Origin: Gandjariella thermophila
Lineage (GTDB): Bacteria > Actinomycetota > Actinomycetes > Mycobacteriales > Pseudonocardiaceae
NCBI RefSeq assembly: GCF_005405885.1
Contig: NZ_BJFL01000023.1
Location: 1 to 64,000, forward strand
Reading direction: 5' to 3'
Length of the DNA stretch: 64,000 bases
Both the position numbers and the translations under genes were made by a program. How positions within the stretch are numbered: the stretch's first letter is position 1; every line of letters starts with the position of its first letter. The notes under the pieces are model-generated. The model was not told where the DNA came from. It saw only the letters and a list, made by a program, of their open reading frames with translations, and did not search any database. This document shows, one piece after another, positions 49,219-59,400 of the stretch.

Positions 49219-50058
49219 TCACGGCCGGCGGAAGCCGGGTACCGCGAACGCGACACCCAGCACGGCCAGCAGCAGGCTGGTGACCAGCGCCGACACCACT
49301 CCGGTGCCGACCGGCATGGCCAGCGCGAGGTTGCGGGCCGCGTCCACCGCGTAGGTCAGCGGGTTGACCTTCGCGACCGCCTGCAGCCAGCCGGGCAGGC
49401 CGCTGACCGGCACGTACGCGCTGGAGGCGAACATCAGCGGAAACATGGCCAGGAATCCGACCGACTGCATCGCCTCCGCGTTGCGCAGCCACGACCCGAG
49501 CGCGAGGAACACCCAGGCCAGGCCCCAGCTCACCACCAGGCCGAGGAGCAGCGCGGCGACCACGCCGGTCCACCCGCCGGCCGGCGAGAAACCGAACACC
49601 ACGGTGGCGAACAGCACCATGATCACCAGCTGGACGGCGGACCGTGCCAGGTCGGCCAGGCTGCGGGCGACGAGGACGGAGCTCAGCCGGATGGGCAGCG
49701 ACCGGAACCGGGCCAGCACGCCGCTCTTCATGTCGGTCACCAGCCCGATGCCGGACTGCAGCGCCGAGCCGATGCCGGTGGTGACGATGATGGCCGGCAT
49801 CAGATAGTTGATGTAGCTGACCCCGGCCGGGAAGCCGGGGGTGTGCGCGATGCTGCTGAACACCTGGCTGAACAGGGCCAGCATGACCAGCGGCTGCAGT
49901 AGGTTGAACACGATCAGCCTTGGGTCGCGGATGATCGCGCGCAGGGACCGGCCGGTGAGCACCAGGATCTGGGTGGCCACGCCGGTGCCGTGCCAGCCGC
50001 TGCGGGCCGGCTCCGCTCTGCTGCCGGCCCGCTCGGGCGTGTTCAGGGTTGTCGTCAT
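49219..50058 (-). CDS. ABC-2 permease, daunorubicin-resistance (DrrB-like) type
   Basis: The 279-aa protein has six TM helices and DrrB-type motifs: RSLRAIIRDPRLIVFNLLQPLVML, YLMPAIIVTTGIGSALQSGIGLVTDMKSGVLARFRSLPI, and NPLTYAVDAARNLAL. It is the membrane part of a drug exporter with the DrrA-like ATPase upstream. The ATG at 50058 is 20 bp after the ATPase stop. The operon TetR-ATPase-permease is probably controlled at a 44-bp palindrome upstream. Confidence 0.93.
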   Translation of the reverse strand: MTTTLNTPERAGSRAEPARSGWHGTGVATQILVLTGRSLRAIIRDPRLIVFNLLQPLVMLALFSQVFSSIAHTPGFPAGVSYINYLMPAIIVTTGIGSALQSGIGLVTDMKSGVLARFRSLPIRLSSVLVARSLADLARSAVQLVIMVLFATVVFGFSPAGGWTGVVAALLLGLVVSWGLAWVFLALGSWLRNAEAMQSVGFLAMFPLMFASSAYVPVSGLPGWLQAVAKVNPLTYAVDAARNLALAMPVGTGVVSALVTSLLLAVLGVAFAVPGFRRP

Positions 50059-50078
50059 GGATTCTCGTCGCTTTCGAC

Positions 50079-51023
50079 TCAGGCGGCGGACGGTTGGTGG
50101 GCGAGGGTGAGGTACACGTCGTCGAGCGTCGGCTCGGCCAGGGCGAGTTCGGCGACCTCGATCGAGGCGTCGTCCAGCGCGCGTACCACGGCGGCGAGGT
50201 CGGTGGACGCGGTCACCGGGGTGGTCACCGCGTGCCGCTCTGGGTTGTGCACGGGGTGCAGCCCGGCCCCGGCGAGCGCGGCGACGGCCCGGTCGCCGTC
50301 CGCGGGCTGGCCCAGCGTGACCGTGACCGTGCGCTGCCCCACCTGGGCCTTCAGTTCGTCCGCGGTGCCGGAGGCGACCACCCGGCCCGCGGAGAGCACC
50401 GTGATCGAGTCGGCCAGCCGGTCCGCCTCCTCCAGGTACTGGGTGGTCAGCAGCACCGTGGTGCCGTCGTCGACGAGTTCCTCGACGATCTCCCACATGC
50501 CCAGCCGGCTGGCCGGGTCCAGTCCCGTGGTCGGCTCGTCCAGGAAGATCACCTCCGGCCGGCCGACCAGGCTGGCGGCCAGGTCGAGCCGTCGCCGCAT
50601 GCCGCCCGAGTAGGTCCGGGCCGGCCGGCGCGCCGCCTGCCCGAGGTCGAAGATCTCGAGCAACTCGCCGGCCCGCTGCGCGGCCTCCTTCCGGGAGGCG
50701 CCGAGCAGCCTGGCGATCAGTATCAGATTGTCCAATCCGGACAGTTGCTCGTCCACAGACGCGAACTGGCCGGTGAGCCCGATCCGGCTGCGCACCTGGT
50801 GGGCCTGGTGAACCACGTCGAATCCGGCCACCCTGGCCGTGCCACCGCTCGGCGGCAGCAGCGTGGTCAGCACGTTGACCAGGGTGGTCTTGCCCGCACC
50901 GTTGTGGCCCAGCAGGCCGAGCACGGTGCCCCTGGGCGCCTGGACGCTCACCTCGTCCAGCGCCCTGACCGTGCCAAAGGTCTTGCTGACCCGCACGGCC
51001 TCGATTGCCGGTTGGTCGGTCAC
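50079..51023 (-). CDS. ABC ATPase, DrrA-like
   Basis: The 314-aa ATPase has Walker A GHNGAGKTTLV (about 39-49), signature YSGGMRRRLDLAASL, Walker B VIFLDEPTTGLDP, switch TTQYLEEAD, and the C-terminal DrrA-type extension (RTVTVTLGQPADGDRAVAALAGAGL ... PTLDDVYLTL). This subfamily exports hydrophobic drugs such as daunorubicin. The GTG at 51023 directly abuts the TAA of the TetR gene, so the two are translationally coupled. Confidence 0.94.
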   Translation of the reverse strand: MTDQPAIEAVRVSKTFGTVRALDEVSVQAPRGTVLGLLGHNGAGKTTLVNVLTTLLPPSGGTARVAGFDVVHQAHQVRSRIGLTGQFASVDEQLSGLDNLILIARLLGASRKEAAQRAGELLEIFDLGQAARRPARTYSGGMRRRLDLAASLVGRPEVIFLDEPTTGLDPASRLGMWEIVEELVDDGTTVLLTTQYLEEADRLADSITVLSAGRVVASGTADELKAQVGQRTVTVTLGQPADGDRAVAALAGAGLHPVHNPERHAVTTPVTASTDLAAVVRALDDASIEVAELALAEPTLDDVYLTLAHQPSAA

Positions 51024-51779
51024 TTAACCGTTTCCCCCTCTGGTGGATGTGGTGTCGATCGCGCCGTGGAGGAACACGTCGACGAGTTGTTCCGCCGACG
51101 GCCGTTCCGCGGCGTGGCTCTCGCCCTGCATGCGGTTGGCGAAGATCAGTCCGAGCAGCAGCCGGGCGGCCTGCGGCGGCGCCACGCGCAGCCGGGCCGC
51201 CTCGGGTGCGAGCAGGTCGGCGATGGCCGCGGCGACCCGCTGCATGTTCCGCTCCATCTCGTTGCGCGGTTCGGCGTGCTCCCGCCGGGCCGTCCGGTCG
51301 GCGTGCGCGTCCTCCGGCTGCGGGTGGACGCCGGCCGAGCGCAGCGCGTGCGCCAGCCGCCAGATGCGGTCCAGGTAGCCGCCGACCACCTCCGAGACGG
51401 TGGTCATCCGTTCGGCCAGCGGCAGCGAGGTGCGGATCCCGGCGATCCGTTCCACCTCGGCGTCCGACCGTGCTGCCACCCGAAGGCAGCTCGTCAGCAG
51501 GTCGTGCTTGTCGCGGAAGGCGCGGAAGACGGTGCCCTCGGCGATGCCGGCGGCGGCGGCGATCTGGCTGGTGGTCACCGCGTCACCGCGTTCCAGCAGC
51601 AACGGGATGGTGGCCGCGATGATCGACTCGCGGCGCTCCTCGACGCTCATCGCGGGCGCCCGCCTGCGGTGACCCCGATCGGCGCGCACCCCGCCGCGGC
51701 CACGCTCGGCCGCGCGTTGTGCGCGCGCCGCCGCGCGGTCGGCTCGGCGCTGTCTGGGACTCGGTCGATGGTCGGTCAC
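51024..51779 (-). CDS. TetR-family regulator of the DrrAB-like exporter
   Basis: The 251-aa protein has an Arg-rich N-terminal extension of about 45 residues, then a TetR HTH (MSVEERRESIIAATIPLLLERGDAVTTSQIAAAAGIAEGTVFRAFRDKHDLL) and a helical ligand domain. The start is uncertain: GTG 51779 has GGGAGG immediately adjacent, while ATG 51650 would remove the extension but has a poorer SD. The two consecutive 20-bp palindromes (51791-51834) directly upstream make autoregulation very likely. It is the first gene of the exporter operon. Confidence 0.9.
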   Translation of the reverse strand: MTDHRPSPRQRRADRAAARAQRAAERGRGGVRADRGHRRRAPAMSVEERRESIIAATIPLLLERGDAVTTSQIAAAAGIAEGTVFRAFRDKHDLLTSCLRVAARSDAEVERIAGIRTSLPLAERMTTVSEVVGGYLDRIWRLAHALRSAGVHPQPEDAHADRTARREHAEPRNEMERNMQRVAAAIADLLAPEAARLRVAPPQAARLLLGLIFANRMQGESHAAERPSAEQLVDVFLHGAIDTTSTRGGNG

Positions 51780-51790
51780 CCTCCCAGTGT

Positions 51791-51834
51791 ATGAGTGAGT
51801 CCTCACTCATTGCAATGAGTGAGGACTCACTCAT
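51791..51834. promoter_or_regulatory. 44-bp perfect palindrome built of two TetR-type operators
   Basis: Each half is itself a palindrome with perfect 9-bp arms: ATGAGTGAG-TC-CTCACTCAT (51791-51810) and ATGAGTGAG-GA-CTCACTCAT (51815-51834). They are joined by TGCA, so the whole 44 bp is also exactly self-complementary. It starts 12 bp upstream of the GTG of the TetR gene. The symmetry and placement fit two TetR dimers. Confidence 0.85.
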
Positions 51835-52132
51835 TCCGTCGTGCTTCGGTGTGTGGGAGCCGCCCACCGGGCGACGGTTGTCCTTTGTGCCACGAAGGAG
51901 CCCGGTTGTCGCCGGAATTACCGCGCCGATCGGAGACGCCCTCTACCACGGCGGGCCGACATTCCGTGGGCGCGACGGGCGCCGCGCGGGGAGTTCTGCA
52001 CAGGGCGCTCGCCTGTCCACAGAACCGCGGCTCCGGCGCCCGCGATGCCACGTGTCGGGCCAGGCTGGGTCGTGCCGGCGCGGGCCGGAGCGCCACGGAG
52101 TACCGGGCGCGGGACGAGCGGAGGTACCGGTG
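51835..52132. other. Non-coding stretch between the exporter operator and ssb
   Basis: Together with the operator, this is a gap of more than 350 bp without a gene. I see no convincing open frame; it probably holds the ssb promoter. GGAGGT (52121-52126) is the ssb ribosome-binding site. Confidence 0.5.
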
Positions 52133-52732
52133 ATGAACGAGACGAATGTGACCATGGTCGGGAACGTGGCCAGTGACCTGCGGCAGCGGCGCACCGCGGA
52201 GGGCGCCAAGTGGGTGAGCTTCCGGATGGCGTCGACGGAGCGCCGCTTCGATCCGGAAACCGGTCGGTGGGTGGACGGGCGGCAGGTCTTCGCCACCGTC
52301 AACTGCTGGAAGCGGCTGGCCGAAGGGGTGGCCGCGTCGCTCGGCAAGGGTGACCCGGTGGTGGTCACCGGCCGCATGTACACGCGCGACTACGAGTACG
52401 AGGGCCAGCAGCGGGTGTCGCTGGATGTCGACGCGCACGCGGTGGGTCCGGACCTCACCCGCTGCACCGCCGACCTGCGGCGCAACCGGCCGCAGTCGGA
52501 CGGGGCGCGGGATGCGCCGGCGCCGGGCGCTCCGGACGCCACCGCCGCGGTGCCGGCGGACGGCGACCGCGCTGTCGCCCGGGCGGTCGGCGCCGCGGCA
52601 GCACAGGCCTCTCCGGCTGCGGTCGGCCCTACGGAACGCTCGGTGGCGGAGTCCGCGGTGGCCGAGGCCCCGGTGGCGACCGGTCCGGCGGCGACCGGCG
52701 CGGCACGGCGGAGGCGTGCGTCGGCCGCCTGA
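52133..52732 (+). CDS. ssb: Single-stranded DNA-binding protein paralogue
   Basis: The 199-aa protein has the SSB OB-fold (about 1-110: NETNVTMVGNVASDLRQRRTAEGAKWVSFRMASTERRFD, FATVNCWKRLAEGVAASLGKGDPVVVTGRM) followed by an Ala/Pro-rich tail ending RRRRASAA. It lacks the acidic D-D-x-P-F tip used by replicative SSB to recruit partners, so it is likely the secondary paralogue that actinobacteria carry near ettA. GGAGGT precedes the ATG by 8 nt (a GTG at 52130 is also possible). Confidence 0.92.
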   Translation: MNETNVTMVGNVASDLRQRRTAEGAKWVSFRMASTERRFDPETGRWVDGRQVFATVNCWKRLAEGVAASLGKGDPVVVTGRMYTRDYEYEGQQRVSLDVDAHAVGPDLTRCTADLRRNRPQSDGARDAPAPGAPDATAAVPADGDRAVARAVGAAAAQASPAAVGPTERSVAESAVAEAPVATGPAATGAARRRRASAA

Positions 52733-52950: not shown

Positions 52951-54627
<1,677 letters not shown>

Positions 54628-54642
54628 ACGGAGAAACCGTTC

Positions 54643-57600
54643 GTGGCGGCCAGGGACGAGGCGCAGGCAGACGTCGAGGTGGACACCCTCGTGGTGTCCG
54701 CCCGGCGGCTGCGTTGGCGGGCGCCCGAACTCGCCCTGGTGCTCAGCGAGCGGGCGGCGGCGCTGGCCGGCGCCCGGCGGGACGAGGCCGAGCGGTTACG
54801 CGCGGAGGCGTTGGCCGTGTCCGCGCTCAACCGGCTGGGCCGGGGCATGCAGGTGGTCGACCGCACGGTGAGGGTGCTGCGGGCCGCCGAGGCGGCCGGG
54901 CAGCCGGAGGTCGGCTGGGAGGTGCGGGTCGAACTCGCCGCGAATGCGAAAGCGGCTCGGGTTCCGATGACCGGCTTCGCGCTGCTCCGGCCGGTGCTGG
55001 CGGCCGAGGGCGTGCCCAACGCGCTGCGCGCGACCGCCCTGATGCGGGCCACCGAATGCCTGGTCGGCCTCGGCCGCAGCCAGCCGATCAGTGACGCGCT
55101 GGACGAGTCGGACCGGCGATACGCGGCGGCCGAGGAACTGGACGGCGACACCCGGCTGCTGCTGCGCGGCCAACTCCACGCGGTGATCGCCGCGCACCAG
55201 CGGCGCTGGGGCGACCTGGCCGGCGCCATCGCCGCCGCGCGGGACGGGCTCGCCCTGCTCGACCAGGTGCGGGACCGGGACACCGACAGCGGGGAGGTGC
55301 TCGGACGCCTCGTCCTGGAGTTGGTGTGCGCGCTGATGGACTCCGACGAGGTCGGTGAGGCGTCCCGGGCCGCGGAGCCCATGCTCGACCGGCCGGTGCG
55401 CGCCCCGTTCGCCGCCAGCGCGGGCTGGCTCCGACTGGCCCTCGCCACCCGCGTCCACCTGCCTGCCGGCCGGCTGGAGGTGGCCCAGGCGTTGCTGCGG
55501 GACACCGTGGACAGCGCCACCCGCCATCAGCTGGACGACCTGCTCACCGAGGCGCTGCTCGCGGTGGCGCACGTGCACGAGACGCGCGGCGAGCTGTCCG
55601 AGGCGCTGGCCCATCTGCGGTCCGCGCACGCCGCCGAGCGCAGGCAGGCGAGAATCATGTTCGGGGTGCGCGCGCGGCTCGCAGAGGGGTTCGTCGCCAA
55701 CGGCCGCGAGGTCGGTACCGCCGTGCCGGACCAGTTGGCCGCGCTGCTGCGGCCCGGCGATGCCAGCCAGCCGCACGCCACGGCGACCACCGAACCCGCC
55801 ACCTCGCTAGCCGGAGCGCCGACGTCGATCGCCGAGCCCGTGGTGCCACCATGGTCGGCCGAACCGGCGGAACCCACCGGATTCGGTGCGCCGGAGGACT
55901 CCCCGGGAATCGCGGCCGCCGCGGAACCGCAGCTGGCGGAGCCGTCCGAGCGGTCCCGTCCGACAGAGCCGGCCGAGGCGGCCGAAGACGCCGGACCGCG
56001 GATCGCCGATGTGCCGGAGCCGGAAGCGGCTGCCGCCGTCGCCGAATGGTCCTGGACGTCCGTGGAGAGCGAGGAAGCGTCCGGCGGGGACCTCGCGGAC
56101 GGCGAGACACCACCCGCCGCGCCGCGCCGTACCAGTTCGCTCCGCCGGATCGGTCAGGGCAGCCGCGGCGAGGGGCGGCGCAGGACGCGGCGACCGGCCG
56201 ACGAGCGTGGCGACGGGCTGTCCACCGCGTGGGCGCAGGCCGCCGATCGGTGGCGGCTGCACCGGCTGCCCGGGACCTCGCCGAGCACGACGTCCGAGGC
56301 CGGTGCCGATGCGCCTGGCATCGGTGAGGCCGCGGAACTCTCCGCGCTGGGCCGAATCTCCGGCGCCGGCACACAGCAGCCCGGGTCCGCCGGCGAGATC
56401 GACGAGCCGCCCGCCGTCGAACCCGGCGCCGTCGAACCCGGCGGCGCGGATCCGACCGGCGCGAAGGCGGCAGCCGGCGAGAGCGCGGCCGCGGACAGCA
56501 CGGCGGACACCGTCACCGGCGGGGCGACGAGCGGCATGACAGGCGGCGCCGCCGACCGCCTCGGCGACGGCGGGCTGGACGGCGTTGCCGAGGCGGAGGC
56601 CGCCGGCGGCGAGGATCCGCCCGGTGGGCGGCGTCGCGCCGATGACCGCGGTCGGCACCCTCGGCATGGCACCGACCGGCCGACCGGCCTGGACGTGCTC
56701 GCGGCGGCAGGGGTCACGCCGATCCCCGGCACGGGGGGCCGCCGCCGGGCGGCCGACCCGGAGGAGGACACGGACGCCGGTGGCGCCGCCCCCAGCGCGG
56801 GCGAGGACCAGACCGCCGAGCCCCCGGGCGGACCTGCCGACGATCCGCTCGGCGCTCCGGCGGACACCGACACTGGTGCGGACCCGGCGGCGTCGGCCCT
56901 GCTGCCCGCGCCGGAGTTTCACCCGCTCAGCGCCCTCGCGGCCGAACCAGACACGCCCCACCACCCTGGCCTGCAGGACGAGCCGGCCGACGACCAGGAT
57001 CCGAGCGGCGTTCATGGGGGTTCGGGTACCGCGCCCACGGCCGACCGGGTCACCGGCGGAGCCCAGAGGGAGCACGGCGGCCCGGCCGCCGGTGAACATG
57101 GACGCGAGACCGACCGGCCGGTGCCACGGCTCGTCTCGCCGGTTGACCCCGAGCCCGCCATGGTGTGGTGCCCGGACGCGGCCCCGCTGCCTGCCTTCGT
57201 CGAGGACCCGCGGTGGTCGCGTGCGGTGGACCGGTCCACCGAGGCGCGCATCCCGGAGCCCGGCCCGGAACCCGACCTGCCGGACCCCGACCGCCCCGAG
57301 CCGCACCGGCCGGAACCCCGCCGGCCGGAGCCCGAGCGGGAGCCGTCGAAGCCGCCGCCGCTGCCGGACCCGCTGCCACCCGAGCCTGGCCCGGATGCCA
57401 TTCCGCCGGTGCCCGAGCCGGACGAGCGGCCGCACGATCCCGAGCCGCCACCTCCGGAGCCGCCCCAGCAGCCGGATGCCGGCCCGGAGCGGCGCACCGC
57501 CGCCGGCCATCGGGCGGGCAGCGAACCGGCGGCGTTCTCCGATCACGGGGCCGAGCAGCCGACCCCCGCCGGTCGGTGGGCCGACCGCGAGCCCGGGGCG

Positions 57601-59400
57601 CTCGCCGACCCCGGAAGCGACGCGCGAGCCGGTTCGCCCGACCGGCGCGGCGACGGGGGAACCGGGACGGCGGCGGAAGGCGCCGAGCCGGGGCGCGTGC
57701 GGGCCGGCACCCGCGCCGATACACGCGGTGGCTTCATCGGCGTGGTGGAGCTGCCGGCCGAGCGTGTCCCAACCGACGAGAGCGACGACACGCCCGCCGT
57801 GGCGGATGACGCGACCGGGGCGAGAGCCAGCGGGCGACCGCGCAGGAAGAGTTCGTTCCGGTTCGGTGATCCCGAGTCCCGGGAGTCCCGCCGCAGGGTC
57901 AACGCCGCGCTCGCCGAGCTGCTGGCGGAGGCGCTGGTCGCCTACGAAACCGGCCGGCGGGGCGAGGCTCCACCGGAAGAGCAGCCGGCCGGTGACGCCC
58001 GGCCCGACGGTGGCTGGGCGGAGAGCGGCGCCGACAACCCGGACCACCGCGCCGACCAGGTGGATCACCTCGCCGCGTGGGCGGAGCGGGCCACGGCCGG
58101 CGAAGCTTTCAGCTACTCGACGTCGGGCTACCCGACCAGCGGCCGCCGGGCGACCGGCCACGGACCCACGGACGACGATCTCACCGGGCACGAACCAATC
58201 CACGAACCATCCCCCGAACCGGGCGGCTATTCCGTTGCACCGGGCTATGCCGCAGGCGACGCGACCGCCCACTCGCTGCCCGCCGACGAGCCCGTCAGCG
58301 ACGAACCGGGCGGCATCGGAACCACCGGCCGCGACCCGGTCGGCGCCGAACCCGGCGGTAGCGGCCGGACCGGGCTCGAATTCGCCGGCCGTGGCCCGAT
58401 GAGCCCCGAACCCGGCCGTAGCGACCTGACGGGACTCGAACCGGCGGCCAGCGGCCTGACCGGACCCGACTTCGCCGGACCCGACCTGCTCGCCGACGAC
58501 CTCGCCGGTTCGGACCTGATCGGCCACGAACCCGCCGGCCACGAACCCGCCGGCTACCGGGCTGGCGGCGACCGGACCGGCGACGGCTCCGAACCCACCG
58601 GCTATGGCGGCACCGCGCCGCAACCCGCCGACACTGACGATCGCGCTGATCCTGGCGACCACACCGGCAGCGAGGGGGACGAGCCCGCACAGGCGGGCCG
58701 CTCCGCCGCGCAGACCGGCGACGGTCGTCCGCCCTCCGGGGGCCGGTCCCGGCGCGGCGGCGAGGGCACGGTGAGCGTCGCCGATCTGCTCGAGGGGCTC
58801 GGCGTCGACACCTCCCGCGCCGCCCGCGGCAGGGCGTCCCGGGCGGCGCGCCGCCGGAGCGCGGACGGCGGGACGGACCAGGAGGCTCCGGCCGGCAGAC
58901 ACGCGACCGGATCCGGCGTCCGGGACACGGCGGCGGCCGACCCCGCCGAAACGCCGCGCGCCACCCGGGGGCGTCACTCGGCGGAGTACTTCCGCAGCGC
59001 CTGGCAGGACGGCGGCGCGGACCGCGCCCGGCAGGACGGCGGAGCCACCGGCTACCCCGGTGACGAGTCCGCGGAACCCGGGCCAACCGACCGGTACGGG
59101 CGCCCCCGCCGGCTCACCGCCGTGTCCGGCGGGCGGCCGTGGGAGGAGGACACCGGCCCGATCCGGTTCGGCTTCCCGGAGGACGACGGCGACCTGTCGA
59201 CCACCGACAAATATTCTCTGGATCAGTACTCTGTCACGGCCGAGGAGACCTCGTTCGCCGACTGGTCACGCCCGGTGACCAACCCGCCGGCCAGCCGACC
59301 AGACGGCGGCGGCTGGACGCCGGCGTCGCCGGGGCTGATGGGCCATGCCGGCGACGAACCCGGCTGGGGGCCTGGAGATGCGGGCTACTCCCGGCTGTGA
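54643..59400 (+). CDS. 1585-aa protein: helical N-terminal domain plus giant low-complexity region
   Basis: The function is unknown. Residues about 1-380 form an all-helical, TPR-like repeat domain (VLSERAAALAGARRDEAERLRAEALAVSALNRLGRGMQVV ... EALAHLRSAHAAERRQARIMFGVRARLAEGF). Residues about 390-1070 are low-complexity, rich in Ala, Glu, Pro, Gly and Asp, with a PEP/EPxxPEP stretch near 57250-57480 nt. Short ordered islands follow: RKSSFRFGDPESRESRRRVNAALAELLAEALVAYETGRR (about 1065-1105), SVADLLEGLGVDTSRAARGR (about 1377-1396), and a C-terminal PWEEDTGPIRFGFPEDD motif. Degenerate G-x-x-EPAG repeats fill 58300-58560 nt. The GTG start is 15 bp after ettA (GGAG upstream), so it is probably co-transcribed. 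Only the N-terminal domain and islands look conserved. Confidence 0.7.
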   Translation: MAARDEAQADVEVDTLVVSARRLRWRAPELALVLSERAAALAGARRDEAERLRAEALAVSALNRLGRGMQVVDRTVRVLRAAEAAGQPEVGWEVRVELAANAKAARVPMTGFALLRPVLAAEGVPNALRATALMRATECLVGLGRSQPISDALDESDRRYAAAEELDGDTRLLLRGQLHAVIAAHQRRWGDLAGAIAAARDGLALLDQVRDRDTDSGEVLGRLVLELVCALMDSDEVGEASRAAEPMLDRPVRAPFAASAGWLRLALATRVHLPAGRLEVAQALLRDTVDSATRHQLDDLLTEALLAVAHVHETRGELSEALAHLRSAHAAERRQARIMFGVRARLAEGFVANGREVGTAVPDQLAALLRPGDASQPHATATTEPATSLAGAPTSIAEPVVPPWSAEPAEPTGFGAPEDSPGIAAAAEPQLAEPSERSRPTEPAEAAEDAGPRIADVPEPEAAAAVAEWSWTSVESEEASGGDLADGETPPAAPRRTSSLRRIGQGSRGEGRRRTRRPADERGDGLSTAWAQAADRWRLHRLPGTSPSTTSEAGADAPGIGEAAELSALGRISGAGTQQPGSAGEIDEPPAVEPGAVEPGGADPTGAKAAAGESAAADSTADTVTGGATSGMTGGAADRLGDGGLDGVAEAEAAGGEDPPGGRRRADDRGRHPRHGTDRPTGLDVLAAAGVTPIPGTGGRRRAADPEEDTDAGGAAPSAGEDQTAEPPGGPADDPLGAPADTDTGADPAASALLPAPEFHPLSALAAEPDTPHHPGLQDEPADDQDPSGVHGGSGTAPTADRVTGGAQREHGGPAAGEHGRETDRPVPRLVSPVDPEPAMVWCPDAAPLPAFVEDPRWSRAVDRSTEARIPEPGPEPDLPDPDRPEPHRPEPRRPEPEREPSKPPPLPDPLPPEPGPDAIPPVPEPDERPHDPEPPPPEPPQQPDAGPERRTAAGHRAGSEPAAFSDHGAEQPTPAGRWADREPGALADPGSDARAGSPDRRGDGGTGTAAEGAEPGRVRAGTRADTRGGFIGVVELPAERVPTDESDDTPAVADDATGARASGRPRRKSSFRFGDPESRESRRRVNAALAELLAEALVAYETGRRGEAPPEEQPAGDARPDGGWAESGADNPDHRADQVDHLAAWAERATAGEAFSYSTSGYPTSGRRATGHGPTDDDLTGHEPIHEPSPEPGGYSVAPGYAAGDATAHSLPADEPVSDEPGGIGTTGRDPVGAEPGGSGRTGLEFAGRGPMSPEPGRSDLTGLEPAASGLTGPDFAGPDLLADDLAGSDLIGHEPAGHEPAGYRAGGDRTGDGSEPTGYGGTAPQPADTDDRADPGDHTGSEGDEPAQAGRSAAQTGDGRPPSGGRSRRGGEGTVSVADLLEGLGVDTSRAARGRASRAARRRSADGGTDQEAPAGRHATGSGVRDTAAADPAETPRATRGRHSAEYFRSAWQDGGADRARQDGGATGYPGDESAEPGPTDRYGRPRRLTAVSGGRPWEEDTGPIRFGFPEDDGDLSTTDKYSLDQYSVTAEETSFADWSRPVTNPPASRPDGGGWTPASPGLMGHAGDEPGWGPGDAGYSRL

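Follow-up and report, generated by a model that had tools for sequence, protein, structure and literature searches.

Perfect symmetry in an operator invites a functional reading, and the DNA analysed here (64,000 nucleotides in full, referred to as the window) contains an exact palindrome of 44 bp ahead of a gene for a TetR-family repressor. This raised the question whether the symmetry itself serves the repressor. It looks like a by-product here, and attention is due to the promoter architecture and to the matched evolution of the operator pair.

The palindrome and its operon

The window was subjected to an inverted-repeat search, by which positions 51791–51834 were recognized as an exact palindrome, ATGAGTGAGTCCTCACTCAT-TGCA-ATGAGTGAGGACTCACTCAT, with two arms of 22 nt, a complementarity of 100% and 0 nt between them; the symmetry ends at 44 bp, where a T follows on either side. 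It is the longest perfect palindrome of the 64-kb window, the runner-up measuring 24 bp, and for a palindrome of 44 bp a chance expectation of 2.9e-7 per 64 kb was obtained from the base composition. The initial annotation, which had described an exact palindrome of two 20-bp sites, was confirmed on this point, far beyond chance. Its further description, two copies of one 20-bp unit, holds for the half-sites and fails for the centres: the 44-mer contains two sites ATGAGTGAG-NN-CTCACTCAT with TGCA as linker, of which the one at 51791–51810 has the + strand centre TC and the one at 51815–51834 the centre GA. Reverse complementation turns the first unit into the second, and the entire 44 bp is thereby self-complementary. 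At ≤3 mismatches the 20-bp unit occurs 2 times in the window, against 0 expected from 100 shuffles.

The 6.1-Mb genome to which the window belongs was searched for ATGAGTGA-N4-TCACTCAT at ≤2 mismatches, as had been recommended, and 1 additional place was obtained, with 2 mismatches. On our reading of the 3 kb examined, this sole place adjoins a DEAD-box-helicase-like ORF and has no evident TetR gene within that distance, for which reason other targets of the operator in this genome were dropped as a candidate.

All genes of the operon lie on the minus strand. The TetR-family repressor (51024–51779; Pfam TetR_N at 1.7e-09, and ortholog alignment) has its GTG start at 51779, and the palindrome was correctly placed upstream of it, at a distance of 11 bases (51780–51790) where 12 bp had been given. 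The start codon of the ATPase (50079–51023) abuts the TetR stop codon; with 335 bits against the curated cut-off of 312.45 (TIGR01188), this protein belongs to the DrrA subfamily. The permease (49219–50058, ATG start) begins 20 nt past the ATPase. Scans for it were run on the longer frame 49219–50496, in which Pfam ABC2_membrane was matched at 3.3e-35 and the DrrB model TIGR01247 at 114.3 bits, below its cut-off of 223.05, and the protein is classed as an ABC-2 permease at the Pfam level. The earlier assignment, two putative operators of TetR type preceding a TetR gene that leads a DrrA-like exporter operon, is thus supported by the sequence.

Predicted promoter architecture in related genomes

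A broad scan for two perfect half-site pairs, 2–20 nt apart, was performed with one genome per species (84,980 species) and gave 12 loci. A 6-nt gap is present in 9, all of which are Pseudonocardiaceae. The 390 genomes of this family (own included) were scanned with a fixed 6-nt gap at ≤3 mismatches. The array was present in 64 of the 390 and in 12 of 46 genera, with 0 matches of the control pattern in every genome among those listed, and the unit, which the initial annotation had proposed to look for in related genomes, was accordingly found at orthologous loci.

The array loci were all read on the TetR strand, which gave 62 distinct sites. The six bases between the operators read TTGACA in 50, TTGACG in 7, TTGACT in 3, TTGGCA in 1 and TTGCAA in 1, the last being the window alone, i.e. 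60 of the 62 carry a TTGAC[A/G/T] box. The hexamer that follows the second operator fits TANNNT in all 62, and in all 62 this operator occupies the 18-nt spacer between the two elements. Because of this base conservation, the linker is read as a −35 box and the second operator as filling of the spacer. From the −10 to the start codon of a frame of >150 aa, 6 nt were counted in 37 loci and 7 nt in 24 (61/62; the remaining one is truncated at the end of its locus, and L113, a second copy of it, has 7 nt), a distance at which the transcript is probably leaderless. In the window, the predicted promoter on the minus strand would consist of the −35 element TTGCAA (51815–51810), 18 nt, and the −10 element TACACT (51791–51786), which ends 6 nt ahead of the GTG. 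This conserved palindromic operator overlaps the predicted promoter of the tetR operon, as expected of an autorepressor, and a promoter that is probably autorepressed and leaderless would drive the TetR, DrrA-like ATPase and ABC-2 permease genes. For a recurrent actinobacterial exporter repressor this gives a clear architecture, namely operator, −35, operator in the spacer, −10 and a probable leaderless start. A general sigma-70 scan at a threshold of 9/12 consensus letters did not list the window promoter, for which we count 8/12 (TTGACA with TACAGT has 10/12).

The perfect 44-bp palindrome was found in 1 of the 62 distinct loci, the window. Exactness is confined to it because its −35 sequence, TTGCAA, is self-complementary; the exact symmetry thus looks incidental, a by-product of TTGCAA standing in place of TTGAC[A/G/T].

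For a comparison of the neighbourhood, nine named loci were used in which the operator centres are 24 bp apart (the 24-bp array). The TetR of the window was matched in 8 of 9 at 37–52% identity, the ATPase in 8 of 9 at 66–78% and the permease in 7 of 9 at 58–71%, the misses (all three genes of L023 and the permease of L014) falling off the stored locus ends. Seven of these nine double loci also carry an SSB-like gene and EttA on the other side of the palindrome; the sequence of L020 breaks off on that side, and neither gene is seen in L016. The exporter locus looks vertically inherited. In the window, the SSB-like gene (52133–52732) lies beside EttA (52951–54627) and stays under the curated SSB cut-offs (TIGR00621, 53.1 against 53.95 bits).

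Number and spacing of the operators

From the family, 25 TetR homologs without the strict 24-bp array were hand-picked. In 25/25 an operator (≤2 mismatches) is located at the TetR frame or a short distance upstream of it; a second, upstream operator was found in 7/25, one of them degenerate, and no second site at ≤3 mismatches in the other 18. The operator in the spacer (51791–51810 in the window) shares its place in 62/62 distinct double loci, and the upstream operator (51815–51834) is accessory, being absent in these 18 homologs. The degenerate case, L134, has TTGCAT in the −35 place and is possibly a double site turning single.

A search for the exact pattern in which the gap was allowed to vary matched 50 of the 390 family genomes; besides 24 bp, a spacing of 23 bp was seen in 4 genomes and one of 27 bp in 10. 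Of 393 genomes sampled from the class outside the family, 6 have a double site, and 5 of these sites precede a TetR gene of the type described here, with a spacing of 23 or 26 bp. A change from 23 to 27 bp rotates one dimer by ~140 degrees relative to the other. Variable spacing, together with the single-site homologs, makes both a fixed dimer–dimer contact and looping unlikely, and 24 bp between centres would be too short for a loop. The initial annotation had suggested looped or cooperative binding; the former is disfavoured by this short distance, and a fixed cooperative geometry by the spacings of 23, 24, 26 and 27 bp and by the 18/25 hand-picked homologs with one site. In QacR-like double binding, two dimers occupy one overlapping operator in a fixed geometry. 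The sites described here do not overlap, and they stand 23–27 bp apart or occur singly.

The three loci of the broad scan without the 6-nt gap (L019, L021 and L024) were left out of the counts. The double site of L021 adjoins a TetR homolog; L019:2576–2614 and L024:645–697 are double TGAGTGA-type sites with gaps of 3 nt and 17 nt, on our reading beside MFS-type exporter ORFs, and the TGAGTGA-type operator may serve other exporter regulators too. In one Actinophytocola genome (L018:4439–4460), an unrelated 22-bp palindrome, CTATGTGGCG-AG-CGCCACATAG, is located directly upstream of the double operator.

The repressor and its relation to RamR

An AlphaFold model of the window TetR (pLDDT 85) had TetR-family proteins as its best fold matches in the PDB. 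Among the 64 array genomes, 59 contain a TetR match at E ≤ 1e-30; the others (G211, G346, G348, G349 and G354) gave weaker matches, yet a TetR frame stands at the corresponding place.

In a search against PDB sequences, the window TetR alone matched 3he0 best (3.2e-07) and RamR fourth (4e-06). A profile of nine orthologs matched RamR first (3.7e-11), with an alignment mainly through the helix-turn-helix (RamR AGVAEGTLFRYF, window TetR AGIAEGTVFRAF) that spans positions 14–148 of 213, short of full-length similarity. RamR was absent among the 50 fold matches listed of 945, and an identification of RamR by fold search was not retained, these 50 matches not singling it out. The 20-bp unit fits the published RamR operator, ATGAGTG-N6-CACTCAT, as printed in excerpts of PMC4310594 and PMC5645378, by which this actinobacterial exporter repressor array is linked to the operator of RamR. 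In the excerpts of PMC4310594 the RamR operator, upstream of romA-ramA in Enterobacterales, places this unit over a promoter and is given as one inverted repeat; RamR controls ramA and not a DrrA-type operon, and in the window an exporter operon stands in place of the ramA/romA context.

A short basic tail ahead of the helix-turn-helix is common to 22 aligned TetRs and ends in RAPAM in 20 and in RASAM in 2. The tail of the window TetR is rich in Arg and Ala (51651–51779), ~30 residues longer than in the aligned orthologs, and ends in RRRAPAM. RaaS/Rv1219c was set aside as a known homolog, since the excerpt of PMC4155686 gives no operator.

Proposed working of the double operator

Very probably the palindrome is a double operator that brackets the −35 box, in a promoter that is autorepressed and probably leaderless and from which TetR and the pump would be raised upon ligand release. 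A TetR dimer on the spacer operator (51791–51810) would cover the ground from −35 to −10, and a second dimer on the upstream operator (51815–51834) would cover the upstream edge of the −35. Either dimer would block RNA polymerase, and both together would block it more tightly; a ligand, presumably a substrate of the DrrA-like exporter, would free the repressor, and TetR and pump would rise together. What was read directly from the DNA is the sites with their spacing, the conservation of the promoter elements, the operon and its synteny; the proposal would extend this to binding, promoter activity, ligand and tightness of control.

Other readings of the palindrome were weighed against this double operator. 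A bidirectional control element, acting on the divergent SSB-like gene at 52133 as well, would agree with the presence of this gene and EttA on that side in 7/9 named double loci and with TTGCAA reading as a −35 on both strands. It is very unlikely, however: the matching place on the + strand has TTCCGT and no TANNNT, the SSB-like gene starts ~300 bp away, and no sigma-70 site was found on either strand of 51600–52200. A divergent promoter for the SSB-like gene was rejected for the missing −10 on that strand. That the exact 44-bp symmetry is itself selected, with the repressor binding all 44 bp cooperatively, in a loop or as a tetramer, would account for a palindrome exact far past chance; it is extremely unlikely in view of the 1/62 distinct loci in which the palindrome is exact, the −35 box that forms its middle, and the varying spacing (23, 24, 26 and 27 bp) with no second site in 18/25 hand-picked homologs. 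The initial suggestion that exactness reflects selection is therefore not upheld, and the accompanying remark that self-complementary DNA of this length is normally unstable is overstated for 44 bp, judged by how stable palindromes are in E. coli. A hairpin element of RNA or DNA, be it a terminator or a cruciform, is hardly credible, although a single strand of the palindrome folds at −22.1 kcal/mol (z −8.6), for the palindrome lies upstream of the predicted start and no terminator-like site was found; the same judgement applies to an assembly artefact, since 64 separate assemblies share the array, albeit not its exact symmetry.

Comparison with known systems

The mycobacterial TetR MSMEG_3765/Rv1685c likewise represses its own ABC exporter operon by way of a long palindrome overlying its promoter region, according to excerpts of PMC5660060. 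Its motif is one imperfect palindrome of 36 bp reaching into the coding sequence, and its TetR gene is listed there as the last of the operon. SimR/simX is also a TetR-family exporter repressor with two separate operators (excerpts of PMC5812520); these are located between divergent genes and do not form an array around a single −35. QacR resembles the proposed system in having two dimers per operator (cited within PMC5812520), and differs in that its operator is a single 28-bp palindrome (excerpt of PMC4482099) and not two separate 20-bp sites as in the window. A literature search retrieved no description of the present operator array among the titles listed.

Covariation of the operator centres

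The paired central dinucleotides vary among species and are often reverse complements of each other (TC/GA, TT/AA, CA/TG, TG/CA, GA/TC, TA/TA, CC/GG). At 24-bp spacing, complementary centres were found in 21 of 62 distinct loci. By genus-and-pair combination, 15 of 28 are complementary against 4.5 upon shuffling, a value reached in 0 of 20,000 shuffles, and identical centres show no excess (3 against 3.2). The 68 double loci were also placed on a TetR tree, a quick one with 22 of 84 inner branches starred and 25 open. Complementary centres occur in 26 of its rows, where independent evolution of the columns gives 6.1 (sd 3.6); none of 1500 simulations with fitted single-column rates reached 26, with either root, and identical centres (5 against 3.0–3.6 expected) were again without excess. 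Close relatives show mirrored double changes, e.g. the sisters L126 (CA/TG) and L132 (TA/TA), with 100% SH-aLRT.

Other spacings and out-of-family loci were then added, including L145 (CG/CG, self-complementary), which on our reading adjoins a permease-like ORF unrelated to TetR. The class of the two centres matched in 26 of 41 combinations against 10.0 upon shuffling, with 17 inverted, 5 direct and 4 self-complementary pairs. Judged from these sequences, the two operators seem to evolve in concert, as copies of each other.

Origin of the matched centres

These loci offer a natural test case of duplicated operators that are kept matched either by a hairpin mutation bias or by selection. In the template-switching account, the promoter would itself fold into a hairpin during DNA replication, and a switch between the inverted arms would copy one operator onto the other. 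Tandem operators would be kept alike and new ones made in this way, and the 44-mer of the window would be a switch that also crossed the −35 (TTGACA to TTGCAA); this account is a real possibility, if short of probable. Quasipalindrome template switching in E. coli brings imperfect inverted repeats closer to perfection (excerpts of PMC7202029), and template switching can create and repair stems (excerpts of PMC8794818). The systems described in the excerpts of these two papers and of PMC8604942 are reporters, thyA, RNA stems and coding genes, with no paired operators among them, and among the 12 titles listed of 40 in a literature search, none concerned template switching at the operators of repressors. 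According to the selection account, each species' repressor prefers a certain central dinucleotide, by shape or by minor-groove reading with its Arg-rich tail, and no conversion is needed; this is conceivable and rather doubtful. It would be in line with the class match above shuffling (26/41 combinations against 10.0), with the basic N-terminal tail in all 22 aligned TetRs and with an N-terminal extension of SimR that binds the minor groove (cited within the excerpts of PMC5812520).

Template switching predicts inverted over direct matching, which agrees with a ratio of 16:3 in the family (p 0.004, uncorrected for ancestry); a C2-symmetric dimer, as assumed under selection, would be blind to orientation, and the ratio is 17:5 overall (p 0.017, ancestry likewise uncorrected). 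Switching also predicts that perfect arms are tied to complementary centres, which were found in 9/10 perfect-arm loci against 12/52 imperfect-arm loci (ancestry uncorrected), an association that speaks against selection. The change from TTGACA to TTGCAA, two adjacent substitutions, would be one event under switching; the branch of the window is long (0.65 on the TetR tree), and two separate −35 changes are possible. Other data stand against switching. Of the 28 genus combinations, 13 are non-complementary, and direct pairs exist (5 against 17 inverted among the 41 combinations), as selection would allow. Arm asymmetry is retained in 20/21 distinct rows of the genus g25, and asymmetry beside the −35 in 22/22 distinct rows of g8; since such asymmetries persist through whole clades, conversion cannot be frequent. 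Outside the family the inverted:direct ratio is 1:2 by combination, and for purine–pyrimidine centres alone the inverted bias is not significant (6:2, p 0.29). Selection for sites of the same repressor explains the class matching and not the inverted bias, unless this arose by descent and transitions. As a possible cause, template switching is favoured over selection only slightly.

Further features of the window

The second longest perfect palindrome of the window, CGCCGCCCAGCATGCTGGGCGGCG (24 bp), is located at 1302–1325. An ORF of 1585 aa extends over 54643–59400, and its later part is repetitive and rich in Pro, Gly and Glu.
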